Of a DNA stretch of 35,524 bases, positions 14,496 to 19,957 are shown piece after piece. Each line of letters starts with the position of its first letter. The stretch's first letter is position 1. The stretch comes from an uncultured Verrucomicrobiota bacterium. GTDB taxonomy: Bacteria > Verrucomicrobiota > Verrucomicrobiia > Limisphaerales > UBA9464. The notes under the pieces are model-generated. The model did not search any database. It was not told the origin of the DNA and worked only from the letters and a program-made list of their open reading frames with translations. Location of the stretch: positions 1 through 35,524 of the forward strand of contig CAIVQH010000053.1 in the NCBI GenBank assembly GCA_903907995.1, given 5' to 3'. Position numbers and translations under genes: made by a program.

Positions 14496-15863
14496 TCAAC
14501 CTTCACAAACATCGGCCGAAGTGGCTCCGAAGGATCGCATGACAATGGGCAGGGCGGTGACCGCGCGCACGCGCCCCAAAAAATCCCCAGCCGAATCCAC
14601 GGGGCGGGGATCGTATTCCGGCTGGGCGCTCAGGAGCAGGCGGGTCAGCCCCGCTTGGTGGGCCAGATCTTTGGGGTCACCGACGGGCAGCCGCTCCACG
14701 CTTGGGGAAGCGCCCGCTGGCCGATTCGCCTGATAACGCTCGCACCATTTCAGCGTGACGCCACGTTTGAAAACATCCAGGTGACTTATCAGCAGGCCTG
14801 ATAAATTGCCGACCGTAGCCAGCGCGTAACGCAATAGCACGGCATCGGGGTGCCCGCGCCGAAAGGAGCCCTGCCACCCTTCAGCGTTATTGTACGGTTC
14901 GGGCAATTGCGCGTCCAGTGCCTCGTCATGCGTGGGCAACGGCCCGGCCCCGTGACGGGTAAGGTAGCTGCGCAGGACGCCGTAATGCTCGATCGTCACA
15001 TCCAGGCCGAACCGCGCCGCTACCCGGTCGACGGCCGCCGTCGTAATCGAGCTCCAAGTGGTATGGGGATGAAAGCCGCGCCACTCATCGAGCAGGACGC
15101 CTTGGGCGCCTTCAAACAGCACGCAGCCGGGCTGCGTGAGCCGGACAAGGAGCGCTTCGGCGGAAGCAGGGACGCATTGGCGCGCCAAGGCCCGGGCAAT
15201 GTTCAGCCACCGGTCCGCGAGCGATTCCTCTTGGAGTGCCTGAAACTCCGTCTCCTTGGCCCAGATACTTCCGGGCAGACAGAATGAGGAAAATTCAGCC
15301 AGCAGCGTTTCGCGAATCGCTTGCAGTTTTTCCCGCAGCGCGCGTGCTTCGGCCGGGGCATTCACAATCAGGTCGGCGTAACGCAATACCTGGTCGGGAT
15401 GCTGCAGCGAGTGCCGAACCGTTTCACCCACACCGACCCCGCAGGTGCCATGGGCGTCCACGCCGCGCAGCCGCTCACGCAGCCGCCCGGCCGCCTGATG
15501 GTACGGGGTCGTGAGGCGGCATTGCCCGTCAATCTGCAAACGCGTTAGCGCATCCCCAACACCAAGTCGGCCGAGGGCTTCCGCCTCCACCAGCAAGGCC
15601 GTGGGATGCACCACCACTGGGTCGAGGAGCACCGTGCCCACGCCCGGCACCAGGGTGCCCGCGCCAAACTGGGAAAACGTGTGGTGCCGTCCCTCGGAGC
15701 CGCCTCCGGCCGGTGTCACCACATTATGACCGGCCTGGGCTCCGCCATTGAAGCGCACCACCGTATGCGTCGGAGATAGGCGTGCCAGCGCATCGACAAA
15801 ATGCCCCTTGCCGCAGTCCCCGAAACCGAGGCCCAGGATCGAAACGTAACGGGTCGCGCCCAC
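14496..15863 (-). CDS. Divergent adenylosuccinate synthetase (PurA)-like enzyme
   Basis: A 455-residue protein, slightly longer than PurA (~430). It shows the PurA order of motifs: LGFGDCGKGHFVDAL (12-26, P-loop; PurA has GDEGKGK), VRFNGGAQAGHNVV (36-49) with His46, HGTCGVGVGE, VLFEGAQGVLLDEWRG, TTWSSITTAA, GVLRSYLTRHGAGPLPT and LLISHLDVF. The catalytic Asp (D16), Lys (K19) and His (H46) are kept. The aspartate-binding loop (TTTGR.RRCGW in PurA) reads WQGSFRRGH, and Glu14 of PurA is Cys. The reaction is likely GTP-dependent activation of a purine 6-oxygen, but the amine donor or nucleotide may differ, as in phage PurZ. It starts at GTG 15863, 12 bp after the VWA gene, as the last of three genes. 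Confidence 0.8.
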   Translation of the reverse strand: MGATRYVSILGLGFGDCGKGHFVDALARLSPTHTVVRFNGGAQAGHNVVTPAGGGSEGRHHTFSQFGAGTLVPGVGTVLLDPVVVHPTALLVEAEALGRLGVGDALTRLQIDGQCRLTTPYHQAAGRLRERLRGVDAHGTCGVGVGETVRHSLQHPDQVLRYADLIVNAPAEARALREKLQAIRETLLAEFSSFCLPGSIWAKETEFQALQEESLADRWLNIARALARQCVPASAEALLVRLTQPGCVLFEGAQGVLLDEWRGFHPHTTWSSITTAAVDRVAARFGLDVTIEHYGVLRSYLTRHGAGPLPTHDEALDAQLPEPYNNAEGWQGSFRRGHPDAVLLRYALATVGNLSGLLISHLDVFKRGVTLKWCERYQANRPAGASPSVERLPVGDPKDLAHQAGLTRLLLSAQPEYDPRPVDSAGDFLGRVRAVTALPIVMRSFGATSADVCEG

Positions 15864-15875
15864 CAGGCTGGAGCC

Positions 15876-16838
15876 TTAGCCAAACAGGCGCTTCCACCAA
15901 TTGCTGCCCGGCACGCCGGCCGGCCGCGCGAAGGCCGCCGGTCCACCGGTCAGAGCCGCATAGTGCTGGATTGCGCGGTGGGTGGAACCGATCCGTTCAC
16001 GGCTGAATCCGTTGGCGGTCAGGATGCCCGAGAGGGCGGTGAGGTCCGGAATGCGCTTTTCGGTTATACCCACGATGGCTGCGGCCACCGCGCAGGTGTC
16101 CAGAGGGGACTCCATGCAGATGGTGTGGTCGCCCAGCAGTTCCCGCCAGCGCGGCTCGCACTTCTTGCGGCGATCCAGATCCGGGATCAGGAAGAAGACG
16201 TGGTAGGATTCGGCCGCCGCGGCGATCACCTCTTCGATGGGAATGTCCTCGTCGAGTTTTTCACCCACGAGCGCCTCGATGTGGTGCCGCGACACGGTAG
16301 GGTAGGGAAGCTCGTCACCCGTGAGGAAGAGATAGCCCTTCTGCTTGCGCTTCACCCAGTTGTCCATGTCGGTGTGTTGCGCGGCGACATAGAAGGCGAG
16401 TTCGTAGCTTTCCTGTCCCGTCCCGCCACCGCCGCCTTCGAGGTAGCTCCAGGTCAGCCACTGATCCATCAGCTCCGCCGTGCTTTCAAATTGGCCCACC
16501 TGCAACGCGGCCACATCGGAGTTCGCATCACCGATCGCCATGAACATCGGCTGCGGATCGGACACGCCGCAGGCCGTGAGCAGCTTCATCAGGTTGGGCA
16601 GCTCCTGCTTCGCCAAAAGCTCCGGAATGGCCCCCATCGAGCCCGTGACATCCAGCGCAAAGACGATCCCGAGGGAATTGGGATGATCCGCACTGTCACG
16701 GCATTCGCGCACTTTCAGTCCCTTGGGATTCATCAGGGCATGACATTGCCGCTGCTTGAAGACTTCCGCTCCCGCCTGGTGCGCCCGGCCGGCGGTCAGT
16801 GCGGCGTGGGCGGCATAGGAATAGTTTCCGTAACCCAT
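15876..16838 (-). CDS. VWA (von Willebrand factor A) domain protein with MIDAS
   Basis: A 320-residue protein, probably cytoplasmic since no signal peptide or membrane helix is seen. It has a conserved N-terminal tag (MGYGNYSYAAHAAL) and a HALMNPKGLKVRECRDSADHP strip. The VWA core follows, with MIDAS ALDVTGSM (D63-x-T-x-S67), FMAIGDANSD and the third metal-loop region YLFLTGDELP. The QFESTAELMDQWLTW and GGGGGTGQESYELA segments look family-specific. The C-terminus PGSNWWKRLFG reads like a docking peptide. VWA proteins of this kind usually act as metal-dependent assembly partners for ATPases or kinases. It lies between the pseudokinase (43 bp upstream) and the PurA-like gene (12 bp downstream), which suggests a complex. 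Confidence 0.85.
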   Translation of the reverse strand: MGYGNYSYAAHAALTAGRAHQAGAEVFKQRQCHALMNPKGLKVRECRDSADHPNSLGIVFALDVTGSMGAIPELLAKQELPNLMKLLTACGVSDPQPMFMAIGDANSDVAALQVGQFESTAELMDQWLTWSYLEGGGGGTGQESYELAFYVAAQHTDMDNWVKRKQKGYLFLTGDELPYPTVSRHHIEALVGEKLDEDIPIEEVIAAAAESYHVFFLIPDLDRRKKCEPRWRELLGDHTICMESPLDTCAVAAAIVGITEKRIPDLTALSGILTANGFSRERIGSTHRAIQHYAALTGGPAAFARPAGVPGSNWWKRLFG

Positions 16839-16881
16839 AATGAATGCTTTCCGGTGTGTTTGGTGTTCTCTGATCGATGCG

Positions 16882-17826
16882 TCAAACCGTCAGGGAAACG
16901 AACGCGGGCGGGCCGAAGGCGGCCCTCGCCGCGGCTTGTAACAGGCCGTCCAAGCCGTCCGTCCCCTGCTCGCTGCAAAATTTCTCGTCCTGACCGGCCC
17001 GGGTCACCAGTTGGGCCAGCCCGGTCGGGATGTGGCTGGGGATCGTGTTTCCGTCGCCGGCCCCGTTTAGCAACACGGAAATAACGCGGGCGCTGTGCAG
17101 GATATCCGTGGCCTGGGCCTGTGCATGGACAATTGGTTCGGCCGAAGCCCATCCGATCAGCCGAATGCCATGGTCCTGCGGGTGGACCAGCGCGTGTTCG
17201 GGCCGGACATCGCCGTGAGCCCAGCCCTGACGGTGAATGAAACCAAGAACTTCAAGCACGCGCCGCCAGATCCAGACCGCATGGCGCGGATCGAGGCCCT
17301 GCGGATAAAGTTCGTTCAGCGACGCCAAACTGCCCCAGAAGCCGTTGGGATGCCGCAGCACCAGTGCGTGCCGGTCCTGGGTCCCCTCCACCATACCCTG
17401 GGCCATCACCTCCGGCAGACGTTGCGAGAAATACGAGCCGTCCATGCCGCTGCCCAACGCTTGCAATTCCCGCAGCACCTCCGCTTCCCGTGCGTAGCGC
17501 GAGGCCGCCTTGGGCGAGGACGAAAGTTTGATGGTGGCCAGCGACGGCGACAGCCCGAGCCGCTGCGCCAGATAGACCTGCGAGATCTCGCCGCTGCCCA
17601 AGAGCTGCTTCAGCTGATAGCGCTCTCCGGCGCATTCGATGTCCCGACCGGCCGCGGCGGATTGCAGACGCGCCCGGGCCAGGGCCTGGCGAAACGTGTC
17701 GCGACTCACCACCGATTCAGTCCGGGAGATCAGCGCACCGCAGGAGATGCACTTGACCGTGCGCCAGATGGCCACCCTTGGGAGCGGCGCACCGCATTGC
17801 GGGCAGCTGATCGAAACCCAGGCCAT
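16882..17826 (-). CDS. Zinc-ribbon plus protein-kinase-like (probable pseudokinase) protein
   Basis: A 314-residue protein starting at ATG 17826, supported by GGAAGGA 8 bp upstream. A zinc ribbon (C8-x2-C11, C26-x2-C29) comes first, then a linker, then a protein-kinase fold. The fold has a glycine loop LLGSGEISQVYLA (75-87), ATIKL with Lys100, Glu114 or Glu116 in the C helix, and the catalytic loop HGDVRPEH (204-211). The catalytic Asp206 remains, but the loop Asn is His211 and the DFG motif reads IGWA (224-227), so the metal-binding Asp is missing. A pseudokinase or an atypical kinase is likely. No transmembrane segment is visible. It heads the three-gene unit with the VWA and PurA-like genes and diverges from the MBL-fold gene. 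Confidence 0.8.
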   Translation of the reverse strand: MAWVSISCPQCGAPLPRVAIWRTVKCISCGALISRTESVVSRDTFRQALARARLQSAAAGRDIECAGERYQLKQLLGSGEISQVYLAQRLGLSPSLATIKLSSSPKAASRYAREAEVLRELQALGSGMDGSYFSQRLPEVMAQGMVEGTQDRHALVLRHPNGFWGSLASLNELYPQGLDPRHAVWIWRRVLEVLGFIHRQGWAHGDVRPEHALVHPQDHGIRLIGWASAEPIVHAQAQATDILHSARVISVLLNGAGDGNTIPSHIPTGLAQLVTRAGQDEKFCSEQGTDGLDGLLQAAARAAFGPPAFVSLTV

Positions 17827-17834
17827 CAAGGTTG

Positions 17835-17841
17835 TCCTTCC
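17835..17841 (-). promoter_or_regulatory. Ribosome binding site fixing the pseudokinase start
   Basis: GGAAGGA on the minus strand, 8 bp before ATG 17826. It excludes the in-frame start 51 bp further upstream, whose extra residues (PALLWPPPPARGRTTL) are not zinc-ribbon-like. Confidence 0.6.
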
Positions 17842-18091: not shown

Positions 18092-19957
18092 ATGTCTTTG
18101 TGTATGCCATCGGCGCGCGTGCAATTCTGGGGAACCCGCGGTTCGCTCGCGAAACCCGGCCCACCCACCCTTCGCTACGGTGGCAATACGTCCTGCGTCC
18201 AGCTGACCTCGCCGGCGGGCACCCACGTCATCATCGACGCCGGCACGGGCGCGCATGATCTCGGGCGGGCCCTGCTGGCCCAGGCAAGCCAGCAAACTCC
18301 CGGGCTGCCGTTGCGCGGGCACATCCTCATCAGCCACACGCATTGGGATCATATCCAGGGGTTCCCCTTTTTCGCGCCGCTTTTTGTGCGCGGGGGCCAG
18401 TGGGACATCTACGGCCCCGCCGGTCTCGGCCGGTCGCTGCATGACACGCTCGCCGGGCAGATGCAGTACACCTACTTCCCCGTCACTCTGGAAGATATGG
18501 GGGCCAGCATCCGGTTCCACGATCTCGTCGAAGGCGTGTTCGAGATTGATGACCTCCGGATCACCACGCGTTATCTCAACCATCCGGTCCTCACGCTTGG
18601 CTACCGTCTCGAGACGGACCGCGCCACCATCGTCTATTGCTGTGATCACGAGCCGCATGCGCGGGTGCCCGGCCAGCACCCGCCGCTGCACGAGAGCGAC
18701 CGCCAGCATCAGCGCTTCCTCGCCGGTGCCGATCTGCTGATTCACGACGCGCAATTTACGGACGCGGAATATCCGTCTCGGAAGGGCTGGGGTCACAGCA
18801 CCGTCGAGTACGTCGTGGAAATGGCCGAAGCGGCGGGTGTCAAACAGGTGGCCCTGGCCCATCACGACCCCACGCGAACGGATGACGCCCTGAACCAGAT
18901 CGTGGCCGGCACGCGCGCGACCCTCGCCGCCCGGCAATCATCGTTACAGGTGTTCGCCGCCGCTGAGGGTCAGGTCATCGAGCTGTCCACCCGCGAAAGC
19001 GCGCGAGTGGCTCCGCTGGCCAGAGAAAACCTCGGGACGGCCGCGCCCGCCGCCGCCCCCGCCTTGCGCCATGCCACCGTCCTGCATGTGGCGACGGAGA
19101 CCACGCTCGTATTGAACCTCGCCGAAGCCGCCCGTGGGGATGGGGTGCAGGTCCGGCAGGCCACGGATGCCAGGACCGCTTTGGCCATCGCGACCGCGTT
19201 CCCGCCCGACCTGATCGTGCTGGAGGACCAGGCTCCCGGCCTCGACGCGTTATCGCTCTGCCGTGACCTGCGGGCGTCGTCCGATGTCCACCTGAAGGTG
19301 GTGCCGATCATCGTGGTTGCCGCCAAGGAGCGGGCTGCGGAGGGCCAGGCCGCCGGCGTCACCGCGTGGTTGGTAAGTCCCTTCTCGGACCAATACGCCC
19401 GCGCCTTTCTGCAATCGTGGCTCCTGCGCTCGAAGTGCCGCTGGGCGCGGGCCCCGATCCCGACGGACGAGGAACAACGGCTGCAGGCTCTGCGTCAGCT
19501 CGGGATCCTCGACACCCCGGCGGAAGAGCGATTCGACCGCCTCACCCGGCTGGCCGCCGCGCTGGCGGATGTGCCCATCGTCACGGTGACGCTGGTCGAG
19601 ACGAACCGGCAATGGTTCAAATCCTGCCTCGGACTGGAGGCCCGGGAAACGCCGCGCGAGCTTTCGTTCTGTGCGCATGTCGTGGTGGATCGCCAGGCAC
19701 TGGTGGTAGCGGACACCTTCGCGGACGACCGCTTCGCGGACCATCCGCTCGTCCTTGGCGCCCCGCGCATCCGCTTCTACGCCGGGTTCCCCGTCTTCCA
19801 CGAGGACGGCGTCTGCCTGGGCACGCTGTGCCTGATCGACACCCGCCCGCGTCAGCTCGGCGAAAGCACGCTCCTGCAGTTGCGGGAACTCGCCGGCCTC
19901 GTCGAACAGGAACTCCACACCGCTCCGCGTCGGGCTTCCAAAGGCAACGGGAATTAG
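18092..19957 (+). CDS. Metallo-beta-lactamase fold hydrolase fused to a degenerate receiver domain and a GAF domain
   Basis: A 621-residue protein (617 if it starts at ATG 18104). The N-terminal MBL domain (~1-285) begins VQFWGTRGSLAKPG and holds the metal motif SHTHWDHIQGFPFF, a later CCDHEPHA and LAHHDPTR, as in the phosphodiesterase-like MBL proteins of signalling fusions. A receiver-like domain follows (~325-445): DLIVLEDQAPGLDALSLCRDLR aligns with a REC acceptor strand, but the phospho-acceptor Asp is Glu, the N-terminal acidic pair is missing and the conserved Lys is Ser (VSPFS). The C-terminal GAF domain (~465-605) runs LGILDTPAEERFDRL to GTLCLIDTRPRQL. The protein is likely cytoplasmic and may hydrolyse a nucleotide or phosphodiester under small-molecule control; the substrate is unknown. 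Confidence 0.82.
   Translation: MSLCMPSARVQFWGTRGSLAKPGPPTLRYGGNTSCVQLTSPAGTHVIIDAGTGAHDLGRALLAQASQQTPGLPLRGHILISHTHWDHIQGFPFFAPLFVRGGQWDIYGPAGLGRSLHDTLAGQMQYTYFPVTLEDMGASIRFHDLVEGVFEIDDLRITTRYLNHPVLTLGYRLETDRATIVYCCDHEPHARVPGQHPPLHESDRQHQRFLAGADLLIHDAQFTDAEYPSRKGWGHSTVEYVVEMAEAAGVKQVALAHHDPTRTDDALNQIVAGTRATLAARQSSLQVFAAAEGQVIELSTRESARVAPLARENLGTAAPAAAPALRHATVLHVATETTLVLNLAEAARGDGVQVRQATDARTALAIATAFPPDLIVLEDQAPGLDALSLCRDLRASSDVHLKVVPIIVVAAKERAAEGQAAGVTAWLVSPFSDQYARAFLQSWLLRSKCRWARAPIPTDEEQRLQALRQLGILDTPAEERFDRLTRLAAALADVPIVTVTLVETNRQWFKSCLGLEARETPRELSFCAHVVVDRQALVVADTFADDRFADHPLVLGAPRIRFYAGFPVFHEDGVCLGTLCLIDTRPRQLGESTLLQLRELAGLVEQELHTAPRRASKGNGN

Follow-up and report, generated by a model that had tools for sequence, protein, structure and literature searches.

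We identified a three-gene set, encoding a zinc-ribbon pseudokinase, a VWA protein and a homologue of the adenylosuccinate synthetase PurA, which recurs in many bacterial phyla and in large phages and which is categorically new as a system within the open-access literature, each of its folds being already known. The set was found in contig CAIVQH010000053.1 of an uncultured Verrucomicrobiota bacterium (assembly GCA_903907995.1), and "the window" hereafter means the whole stretch of 35,524 nucleotides that was analysed. It occupies positions 14,496-17,826 of the minus strand in the order given above, with gaps of 43 and 12 bp; an earlier note on this DNA had described this layout, together with the ribosome-binding site of the first gene, and its coordinates were confirmed. 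The VWA protein and the PurA homologue form the core of the set and the pseudokinase is a common third member, because the pseudokinase is often missing and the PurA gene lies nearly always beside the VWA gene. Tentatively, and with slightly less than even confidence, we favour an active guanosine triphosphate (GTP)-dependent purine ligase whose substrates have changed and which works as part of a complex with the VWA protein and the pseudokinase. Computation establishes the linkage, the folds, the kept catalytic and replaced substrate residues, the pseudokinase motifs and the spread, whereas the activity, the complex, the nucleotide and amine and the biological role are what we infer.

The earlier note had expected the co-occurrence and order of the three genes to be conserved beyond Verrucomicrobia, and the neighbourhood search that had been preset as a check bore this out. 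Betaproteobacteria, Myxococcota, Chloroflexota, Planctomycetota, Acidobacteriota and Actinomycetota all include carriers of the set, large phages have it too, and the gene order is normally the same. Such recurrence speaks against a chance arrangement. A nine-row alignment was used as the VWA query for bacterial and archaeal genomes, whose contigs contained at least 524 confirmed VWA relatives (79 loci kept); 301 were confirmed in viral contigs (80 loci kept). Together with plasmid and phage records, the total of 159 VWA loci fell into 81 clusters at 70% identity. A PurA homologue was encoded near the VWA gene (same strand, within 5 kb) in 76 of the 81 clusters, comprising 25/28 bacterial or plasmid and 51/53 viral clusters, and the two genes were less than 150 bp apart in 22 of these 25 and 39 of these 51. 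The pseudokinase gene, normally upstream, accompanied the VWA gene in 42/81 clusters, i.e. 26/28 bacterial or plasmid and 16/53 viral clusters, and some Nocardia were also without a recognizable copy. The three-part set proposed earlier was thus upheld for its VWA and PurA core, and the pseudokinase turned out not to be obligatory. No PurA homologue lay nearby at the bacterial representatives L085, L091 and L109 or at the viral loci L164 and L170, and inspection of these PurA-less loci by eye revealed no obvious substitute enzyme.

The full set was present on plasmids of Variovorax, Rhodococcus opacus, Allorhizobium (pAtS4e) and Acetobacter. Mycobacterium phage LRRHood carries it as gp253, 254 and 256, and Vibrio phage Va1 and Rhizobium phage RHph_TM30 carry the VWA and PurA genes with no kinase detected. 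In the phage collection, 207 records matched the VWA protein, 188 of them from Mycobacterium phages. The PurA homologue was matched by 227 records, a count that includes ordinary-looking PurA of bacterial records; 189 came from Mycobacterium phages, 10 from Rhizobium phages and 6 from Vibrio phages.

The third gene product matched the PurA family PF00709 at 183 bits (cut-off 27). It failed the equivalog cut-offs of PurA, with 150.3 of 402 bits for NF002223 and 117.9 of 395.55 bits for TIGR00184, and its 26.8 bits for the PurZ model NF038379 did not reach the cut-off of 300. The structural model displayed the full PurA fold, with a predicted local distance difference test (pLDDT) value of 95, and resembled PurA 1iwe (VIA Z 41.4, root-mean-square deviation (rmsd) 2.6 over 406 residues, 25% identity) more closely than PurZ (VIA Z 34.0, 19% identity). 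A phylogenetic tree split 75 family rows from 26 housekeeping rows at one branch (support 100) and joined the window's protein to four Betaproteobacteria and an Acidobacterium (support 100). The tree did not include loci L042-L044, which belong to the window's 70% cluster, or 23 further housekeeping rows from Verrucomicrobia. The window's genome possesses a separate normal purA, which scored 593 bits to PF00709 against 183 for the window's homologue. Among 50 carrier genomes, 45 encoded a PF00709 protein of at least 333 bits besides a lower-scoring one, presumably the one beside the VWA gene. This second purA, of which only five carriers lacked a high-scoring copy, supports the earlier interpretation in that the homologue is not the housekeeping enzyme, and a housekeeping role was rejected on this ground.

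The active site was compared in E. coli numbering over 76 family cluster rows, with gaps excluded (at most two gapped rows per site), and in an earlier alignment of 45 of these rows. Apart from Arg303 and Asp13, the roles of the sites are those we assume for the E. coli enzyme. The catalytic residues Asp13 (74/74), Lys16 (74/74), His41 (75/75) and Gln224 (76/76) are kept, as are Thr239 (72/75) and the guanine-site Asp333 (73/75, and 44/45 in the smaller alignment); the KLD segment of E. coli PurA presumably recognizes guanine. Other positions are replaced, with Asn38 changed to Gln (74/75), Thr129 to Cys (62/76), Val273 to His (75/75) and Arg305 to a hydrophobic residue (75/75). Arg143 is unconserved, and Arg303 of E. 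coli falls opposite a gap in 76/76 family rows. In excerpts of PMC8342488, Arg303 of PurA contacts both the 2'-oxygen side of inosine monophosphate (IMP) and the aspartate. The aspartate loop itself appears rebuilt: TTGRxR occurred in 0/75 family versus 46/49 housekeeping rows, and an aromatic-Gln loop, one residue shorter, in 68/75 versus 0/49. Similarly, TRHGxG was found in 68/75 versus 0/49 rows and TRVGxG in 0/75 versus 47/49. Regular-expression counts in the family (GDxGKG 70/75, EG[AS]QG 62/75) were lower than the alignment counts because some rows carry other substitutions or are truncated. A G[DN]EGKG motif had served to choose the housekeeping rows (L213 and L215 dropped), so their 49/49 for GDxGKG holds by construction.

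A PurZ identity of the homologue was rejected on the kept Asp13 and the NF038379 score. All 147 phage PurZ sequences described in excerpts of PMC12884076 have Ser in place of Asp13; of the 481 phage homologues of PF00709 counted there, the PurZ portion is treated. The analogy to PurZ and deoxyguanosine monophosphate (dGMP) drawn in the earlier note is therefore not supported, as Asp stands for this Ser in every family row with a residue at the site. The phrog_1211 entry is named "2-aminooxy adenylosuccinate synthetase", and the mycobacteriophage PurA homologues listed in RefSeq (e.g. NC_023725.1) are annotated either in this way or as "PurA-like adenylosuccinate synthetase". Judged by the active-site residues, the "2-aminooxy" label is unsupported for the family, since the PurZ-defining Ser is absent.

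The window's VWA protein had no match in Pfam, NCBIfam or PADLOC at E values up to 1, and no PDB sequence was matched by the family profile. An AlphaFold2 model built from a 78-row alignment predicts a vWA fold with confidence (pLDDT 94). It resembled integrin beta I-type domains both by VIA (Z up to 15.7, rmsd 2.9-3.4, ~195 residues) and by Foldseek; the vWA domains among the 50 solved-structure matches listed were of the integrin type only, which excludes no other family. The top match of the Foldseek search in a viral library was the VWA protein of phage Sauce. The metal ion-dependent adhesion site (MIDAS) noticed earlier is borne out across the clusters (Table 1): its motif is intact and metal binding is predicted, with the Asp of a GDE motif probably serving the site at a later strand.

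The earlier note had also ascribed fixed N- and C-terminal tags to the VWA family. The N-terminal one held, as the protein starts with Met-Gly in 78/81 clusters when a start codon followed by Gly is preferred within -14 to +7 codons of the profile start; the C-terminal one is restricted to a minority of loci (Table 1). Position 4 is mostly G or S and position 6 aromatic. The start codons were ATG in 74, GTG in 5 and TTG in 2 clusters, and a Shine-Dalgarno-type motif preceded them in 60/81. At alignment position 2, Gly was found in 79/79 rows with a residue, against a background of 51/986 neighbouring open reading frames (ORFs) with Gly at residue 2; unlike in the VWA protein, residue 2 is variable in the pseudokinase and the PurA homologue. 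Tandem or second VWA copies (seven loci) bear the Met-Gly motif in 13 of 14 cases; such copies stand beside the set in the Myxococcota loci L087, L089, L090, L091, L093 and L098. An initiator Met before Gly is normally removed, so the mature VWA protein would begin with Gly. The VWA genes of phages Sauce (L224:3182-4966) and Pinkcreek (L225:2888-4708) contain a Hint/intein-type insert, which is lacking in that of LRRHood. The Sauce insert of ~255 residues (188-442) lies directly before the GDE motif, starts with Cys, ends with Asn and is followed by Cys. Pfam Hint and intein matches were below the cut-offs.

The kinase-like protein of the window matched the Pfam kinase model at 30.8 bits, under the cut-off of 31.7; for the profile of its family, the kinase match was firm. 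It is 47% identical to its Variovorax counterpart and 18-23% identical to five other aligned types. The window's protein retains the beta3 Lys, the alphaC Glu and the HRD Asp, with the catalytic Asn changed to His and the DFG Asp to Gly. Across a 41-row alignment, from which copies that were split or scored low (L068, L097 and all below 60 bits) are absent, the HRD Asp and the catalytic Asn were found in 5 rows each and the DFG Asp in 13, the beta3 Lys and the alphaC Glu in 32 each, the HRD His (window His204) in all 41, and a Trp right after the DFG Asp position in 31. These degenerate motifs agree with the first observer's assignment, and the family is, by its residues, one of predicted pseudokinases. 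Among 43 cluster representatives, the N-terminus contained zinc-ribbon cysteines in 14 and an HPD-like motif in 22; two had both patterns, the HPD-like match there probably being due to chance, and nine had neither, partly from mis-called starts. A J domain was unambiguous in the L155 kinase (PF00226, DnaJ, E 2e-25), whereas of three further copies checked, two stayed under the cut-off, with E values of 0.0014 and 0.0007, and the third gave no match. PADLOC matches of the kinase were mostly to generic kinase-containing models.

In the favoured mechanism, the PurA homologue would be the catalytic part of one accessory module. By PurA chemistry, it would phosphorylate O6 of a 6-oxopurine nucleotide using GTP and then couple an amine there; this amine would be other than aspartate, and the nucleotide or its context probably other than free IMP. 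The VWA protein would bind the PurA homologue and present or receive the substrate. The pseudokinase may act as a regulatory adaptor that connects the VWA and PurA proteins with a target or with the DnaK machinery, through an N-terminal zinc ribbon in the window and a J domain in many relatives. The most likely biological role would lie in stress or in the interaction of phage and host, and would benefit cells and lytic phages alike. One specific form of the mechanism, a long shot in our estimation, would make the N-terminal Gly of the VWA protein itself the amine acceptor in place of aspartate; it is suggested by the near-invariant Gly2 and by the aromatic-Gln loop that replaces the aspartate loop. 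A purine nucleotide would then be joined via its C6 to the VWA N-terminus under the control of the pseudokinase and a J-domain partner. We know of no post-translational modification in which a purine nucleotide is C6-linked to a protein N-terminus.

Table 1 Features of the three-gene set in the window and examples of the small phage ORF at other loci.
Feature	Position	Strand	Size, count or basis
Zinc-ribbon pseudokinase, first gene	16882..17826	-	314 aa
GGAAGGA, ribosome-binding site of the pseudokinase gene	17835..17841	-	read from sequence; 8 bases 5' of ATG
Zinc-ribbon cysteines CPQC ... CISC, residues 8-29	17740..17805	-	Pfam zinc-ribbon matches weak, below cut-off
HGDVRPEH, degenerate catalytic loop, residues 204-211, His for Asn	17194..17217	-	kinase alignment
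LIGW, replacing the DFG motif, residues 223-226	17149..17160	-	kinase alignment
VWA protein, second gene	15876..16838	-	320 aa
MGYGNYS, N-terminal signature	16818..16838	-	start-site count, 81 clusters
DVTGS, MIDAS motif, residues 63-67	16638..16652	-	Asp63 81/81, Thr/Ser65 81/81, Ser67 81/81
GDE, residues 174-176, probably with the MIDAS Asp of a later strand	16311..16319	-	Gly174, Asp175 81/81
WWKRLFG, C-terminal tail	15879..15899	-	similar tail in only 39/159 loci
PurA-like enzyme, third gene	14496..15863	-	455 aa, GTG start
GDCGKG loop, Asp16 (E. coli Asp13) and Lys19 (Lys16)	15804..15821	-	45/45, then 74/74 rows
T-R-H, residues 302-304, His for E. coli Val273	14952..14960	-	His in 75/75 rows
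NNAEGWQGSFRRGHPD, putative rebuilt aspartate-loop region, residues 325-340	14844..14891	-	motif counts and alignment
SHLD, residues 360-363, counterpart of E. coli KLD	14775..14786	-	Asp333 counterpart 73/75 rows
Small phage ORF, example	L134:5630-5998		
Small phage ORF, example	L121:5658-5999		
Small phage ORF, example	L129:5630-6001		

The distribution of the set among relatives is patchy. Neither the VWA gene nor a second PF00709 gene was found in any of the 38 nearest relatives of the window's genome, and an even draw of 387 genomes from its phylum contained the VWA gene in three, the window's own genome counted. Around a Myxococcus carrier, 27 of 146 genomes drawn had the gene, a count that includes the centre and other known carriers and in which three cases rest on partial matches. 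The Verrucomicrobia loci L042-L044 encode VWA proteins 79-80% identical to the window's. The absence in relatives and the grouping in the PurA tree lead us to infer that the set moves horizontally. The guanine-cytosine (GC) content of the three genes is 0.63-0.66, compared with 0.62-0.68 in six other genes of the window, and that at third codon positions (GC3) is 0.72-0.79, compared with 0.78-0.91; lying near or somewhat below the other genes, composition leaves recent transfer undecided. Divergent from the set, positions 18,104-19,954 of the window encode one protein with beta-lactamase-fold, response-regulator (just below the cut-off) and GAF domains.

Neighbouring genes were clustered with BLAST (1849 ORFs from the 159 loci, L057 and L168 left out), and the 45 most widespread families were examined. 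The sole frequent family was a small phage ORF of 77-161 amino acids (median 123) in 26/81 clusters (36 loci, all viral), located directly before the VWA gene at loci without a detected kinase; the two copies checked had no Pfam or PHROGs match. The next families were a response-regulator-type one in 6/81 clusters and three in 5 each, among them GIY-YIG-type and NMN-adenylyltransferase-type ORFs (named by eye). Among 41 phage records with the set, RtcB was above the cut-off in 8 and TROVE (Ro-type) in 11; these are raw counts, from which no link to RNA repair is claimed. Within ~6.5 kb of the VWA gene, a TROVE-type ORF occurred in 4/81 clusters (L039, L123/L124, L125 and L152) and an RtcB-type ORF, recognized by eye, in 3/81 (L128, L185 and L186).

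Some contexts were seen at individual loci. Phages LRRHood, Sauce and Pinkcreek have a polynucleotide kinase gene close to the set. In RHph_TM30, genes for a metallophosphatase, a HAD-type hydrolase, a ComF-like PRTase (PF15610) and a NUDIX protein (L203:228-4227) precede the VWA and PurA genes by a few kb, and we take them to resemble Ter-associated nucleoside-type clusters. A NUDIX gene follows the set on Rhodococcus opacus pR1CP1 (L038:9280-9927), and another, divergent, stands before it on Allorhizobium pAtS4e (L040:6070-6795), where AAA ATPase, DUF5682 and DUF4132 genes come directly after the set (L040:10330-16726). One Myxococcales genome has a helicase-like ORF, named by eye, between the VWA and PurA genes (L084:6942-8648).

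Four other explanations were weighed, each of them weaker than the purine ligase reading. Signalling in defence or anti-defence, whereby a modified nucleotide messenger would be produced on infection and the effector would be located elsewhere, is unlikely, though the most credible of the four. It would accommodate the patchy spread (3/387 genomes of the phylum, 0/38 nearest relatives) and the presence on plasmids and in phages. With the small phage ORF set aside, however, neighbour families recur in at most 6/81 clusters, which weighs against this messenger as well as against the precursor reading below; the dedicated messenger of the earlier note is likewise unsupported, as no effector gene was found to recur beside the set. 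Moreover, PADLOC models match neither the VWA nor the PurA part, and a full set in phages would be odd for defence, though it fits anti-defence. Slightly less credible is a non-enzymatic PurA homologue, serving as the GTP-dependent structural or switch subunit of a chaperone-like complex of VWA protein, pseudokinase and J domain. The nature of the partners, a VWA protein and a J-domain pseudokinase, would suit such a subunit, as would the replaced substrate residues with the guanine-site Asp kept. Yet Asp13, His41 and Gln224 are invariant where present in 76 rows from phages and bacteria, and a pure switch would not call for this invariance; we understand these residues to be required for the chemistry on IMP.

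We consider it improbable that the gene encodes a spare or phage-type adenylosuccinate synthetase, or a PurZ making 2-amino-adenine precursors. This would explain the PF00709 match, the PHROGs and RefSeq phage labels, and the 5/50 carrier genomes without a high-scoring ordinary purA. It conflicts with the missed equivalog cut-offs (150 of 402 bits for PurA, 26.8 of 300 for PurZ), with Asp13 in 74/74 rows and no PurZ Ser, with the lack of TTGRxR in 75/75 rows, with an ordinary purA in 45/50 carrier genomes and with the linked VWA gene in most loci. Least probable of the four is that the enzyme supplies DNA or RNA, chiefly that of phage genomes, with a modified purine precursor. The set is common in large phages, with 301 confirmed viral VWA relatives, and the contact that Arg303 makes on the IMP side is missing, as it is in PurZ, which acts on a deoxynucleotide (excerpts of PMC8342488). 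Nevertheless, the small phage ORF aside, no neighbour family occurs in more than 6/81 clusters, and at least 524 VWA relatives reside in bacterial or archaeal contigs, where genome-wide base replacement is unlikely.

Several observations weigh against the purine ligase reading itself. The pseudokinase was undetected in 37/53 viral VWA clusters, and no gene for an effector or consumer recurred, the neighbour families past the small phage ORF reaching at most 6/81 clusters. Five of the 50 carrier genomes had no high-scoring housekeeping purA, their best PF00709 scores being 252 (G442), 235 (G444), 212 (G447), 219 (G462) and 197 bits (G463). A C-terminal guanine-site residue is missing in 4/45 family rows. 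A nearly invariant loop Arg remains (window Arg335), so that the gap placement at Arg303 is uncertain, which bears on the substrate change as read from the alignment. Over 18 genomes, the rank correlation of distances between the VWA protein and the PurA homologue was 0.345, and those with the housekeeping PurA were 0.229 for the VWA protein and 0.391 for the homologue; over 15 genomes, the kinase gave 0.61 and 0.62, versus 0.51. Co-evolution thus lends little separate support, and co-inheritance of the set is not clearly apart from general kinship.

Compared with known systems, the family shares with PurA (PF00709) the whole-length fold and the catalytic Asp, Lys, His and Gln. It differs in the aspartate loop and in the replaced counterparts of Arg143, Thr129, Asn38, Val273 and Arg303, and it is set apart by its own tree branch and its linkage to VWA and pseudokinase genes. 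PurZ and PurZ0 of Z-genome phages are likewise phage-borne PurA paralogues without the usual Arg303 contact, but the family keeps Asp13 where PurZ has Ser, has another loop and is a more distant fold match. Aravind-group work reportedly deals with Ter and conflict systems. TerY-type vWA/kinase/PP2C sets, as we understand them, combine a stand-alone vWA gene with a kinase-fold protein that can bear a zinc ribbon. The linkage of kinase, PP2C and vWA genes is described in excerpts of PMC7159879; these excerpts do not mention the present set, and the term "PurA" is absent from the main text. Here, by contrast, a PurA homologue replaces the phosphatase, the kinase is degenerate and the window's VWA protein lacks a Pfam match. 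The active-kinase triad (HRD Asp, Asn, DFG Asp) is incomplete, with only the HRD Asp present in the window, and no PP2C gene lies between the three genes or, by Pfam, among the two nearest flanking genes. The MoxR-vWA ternary systems are alike in that a vWA protein, proposed to bind a peptide via its metal site, goes with a chaperone-like partner (PMC7159879, excerpts), but the set has no MoxR gene. A MoxR-type AAA+ gene was found neither in the set nor among ten scanned window proteins, and among six inspected records only Allorhizobium L040 had an AAA ATPase (type undefined), 300 bp after the set. PHROGs catalogues the three families singly (phrog_1211, phrog_2971 and phrog_3043) with no joint system and lists the VWA family under "unknown function". 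Open-access full-text literature, a scope that leaves out most subscription papers, contained no description of the set that we could find; the genome announcement PMC9476963, as excerpted, gives phage kinase and PurA-like genes separately among the subcluster C1 genes.

PurA is a textbook housekeeping enzyme, and its phage offshoot PurZ helps to replace adenine in phage DNA. The present family adds a further PurA offshoot, which occurs in many bacterial phyla and large phages, is tied to two regulatory proteins and is filed in databases under a label that its active site does not appear to support. The question lends itself to direct tests, since Variovorax, Myxococcus and Bxz1-type mycobacteriophages grown on Mycobacterium smegmatis can all be worked with, and the annotation of ~200 sequenced phages would become clearer even if no enzyme activity were seen. 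An active homologue would produce a purine conjugate not described so far, whether as a small molecule, as a building block of nucleic acids or as a modification of a protein, for use in both cells and viruses.

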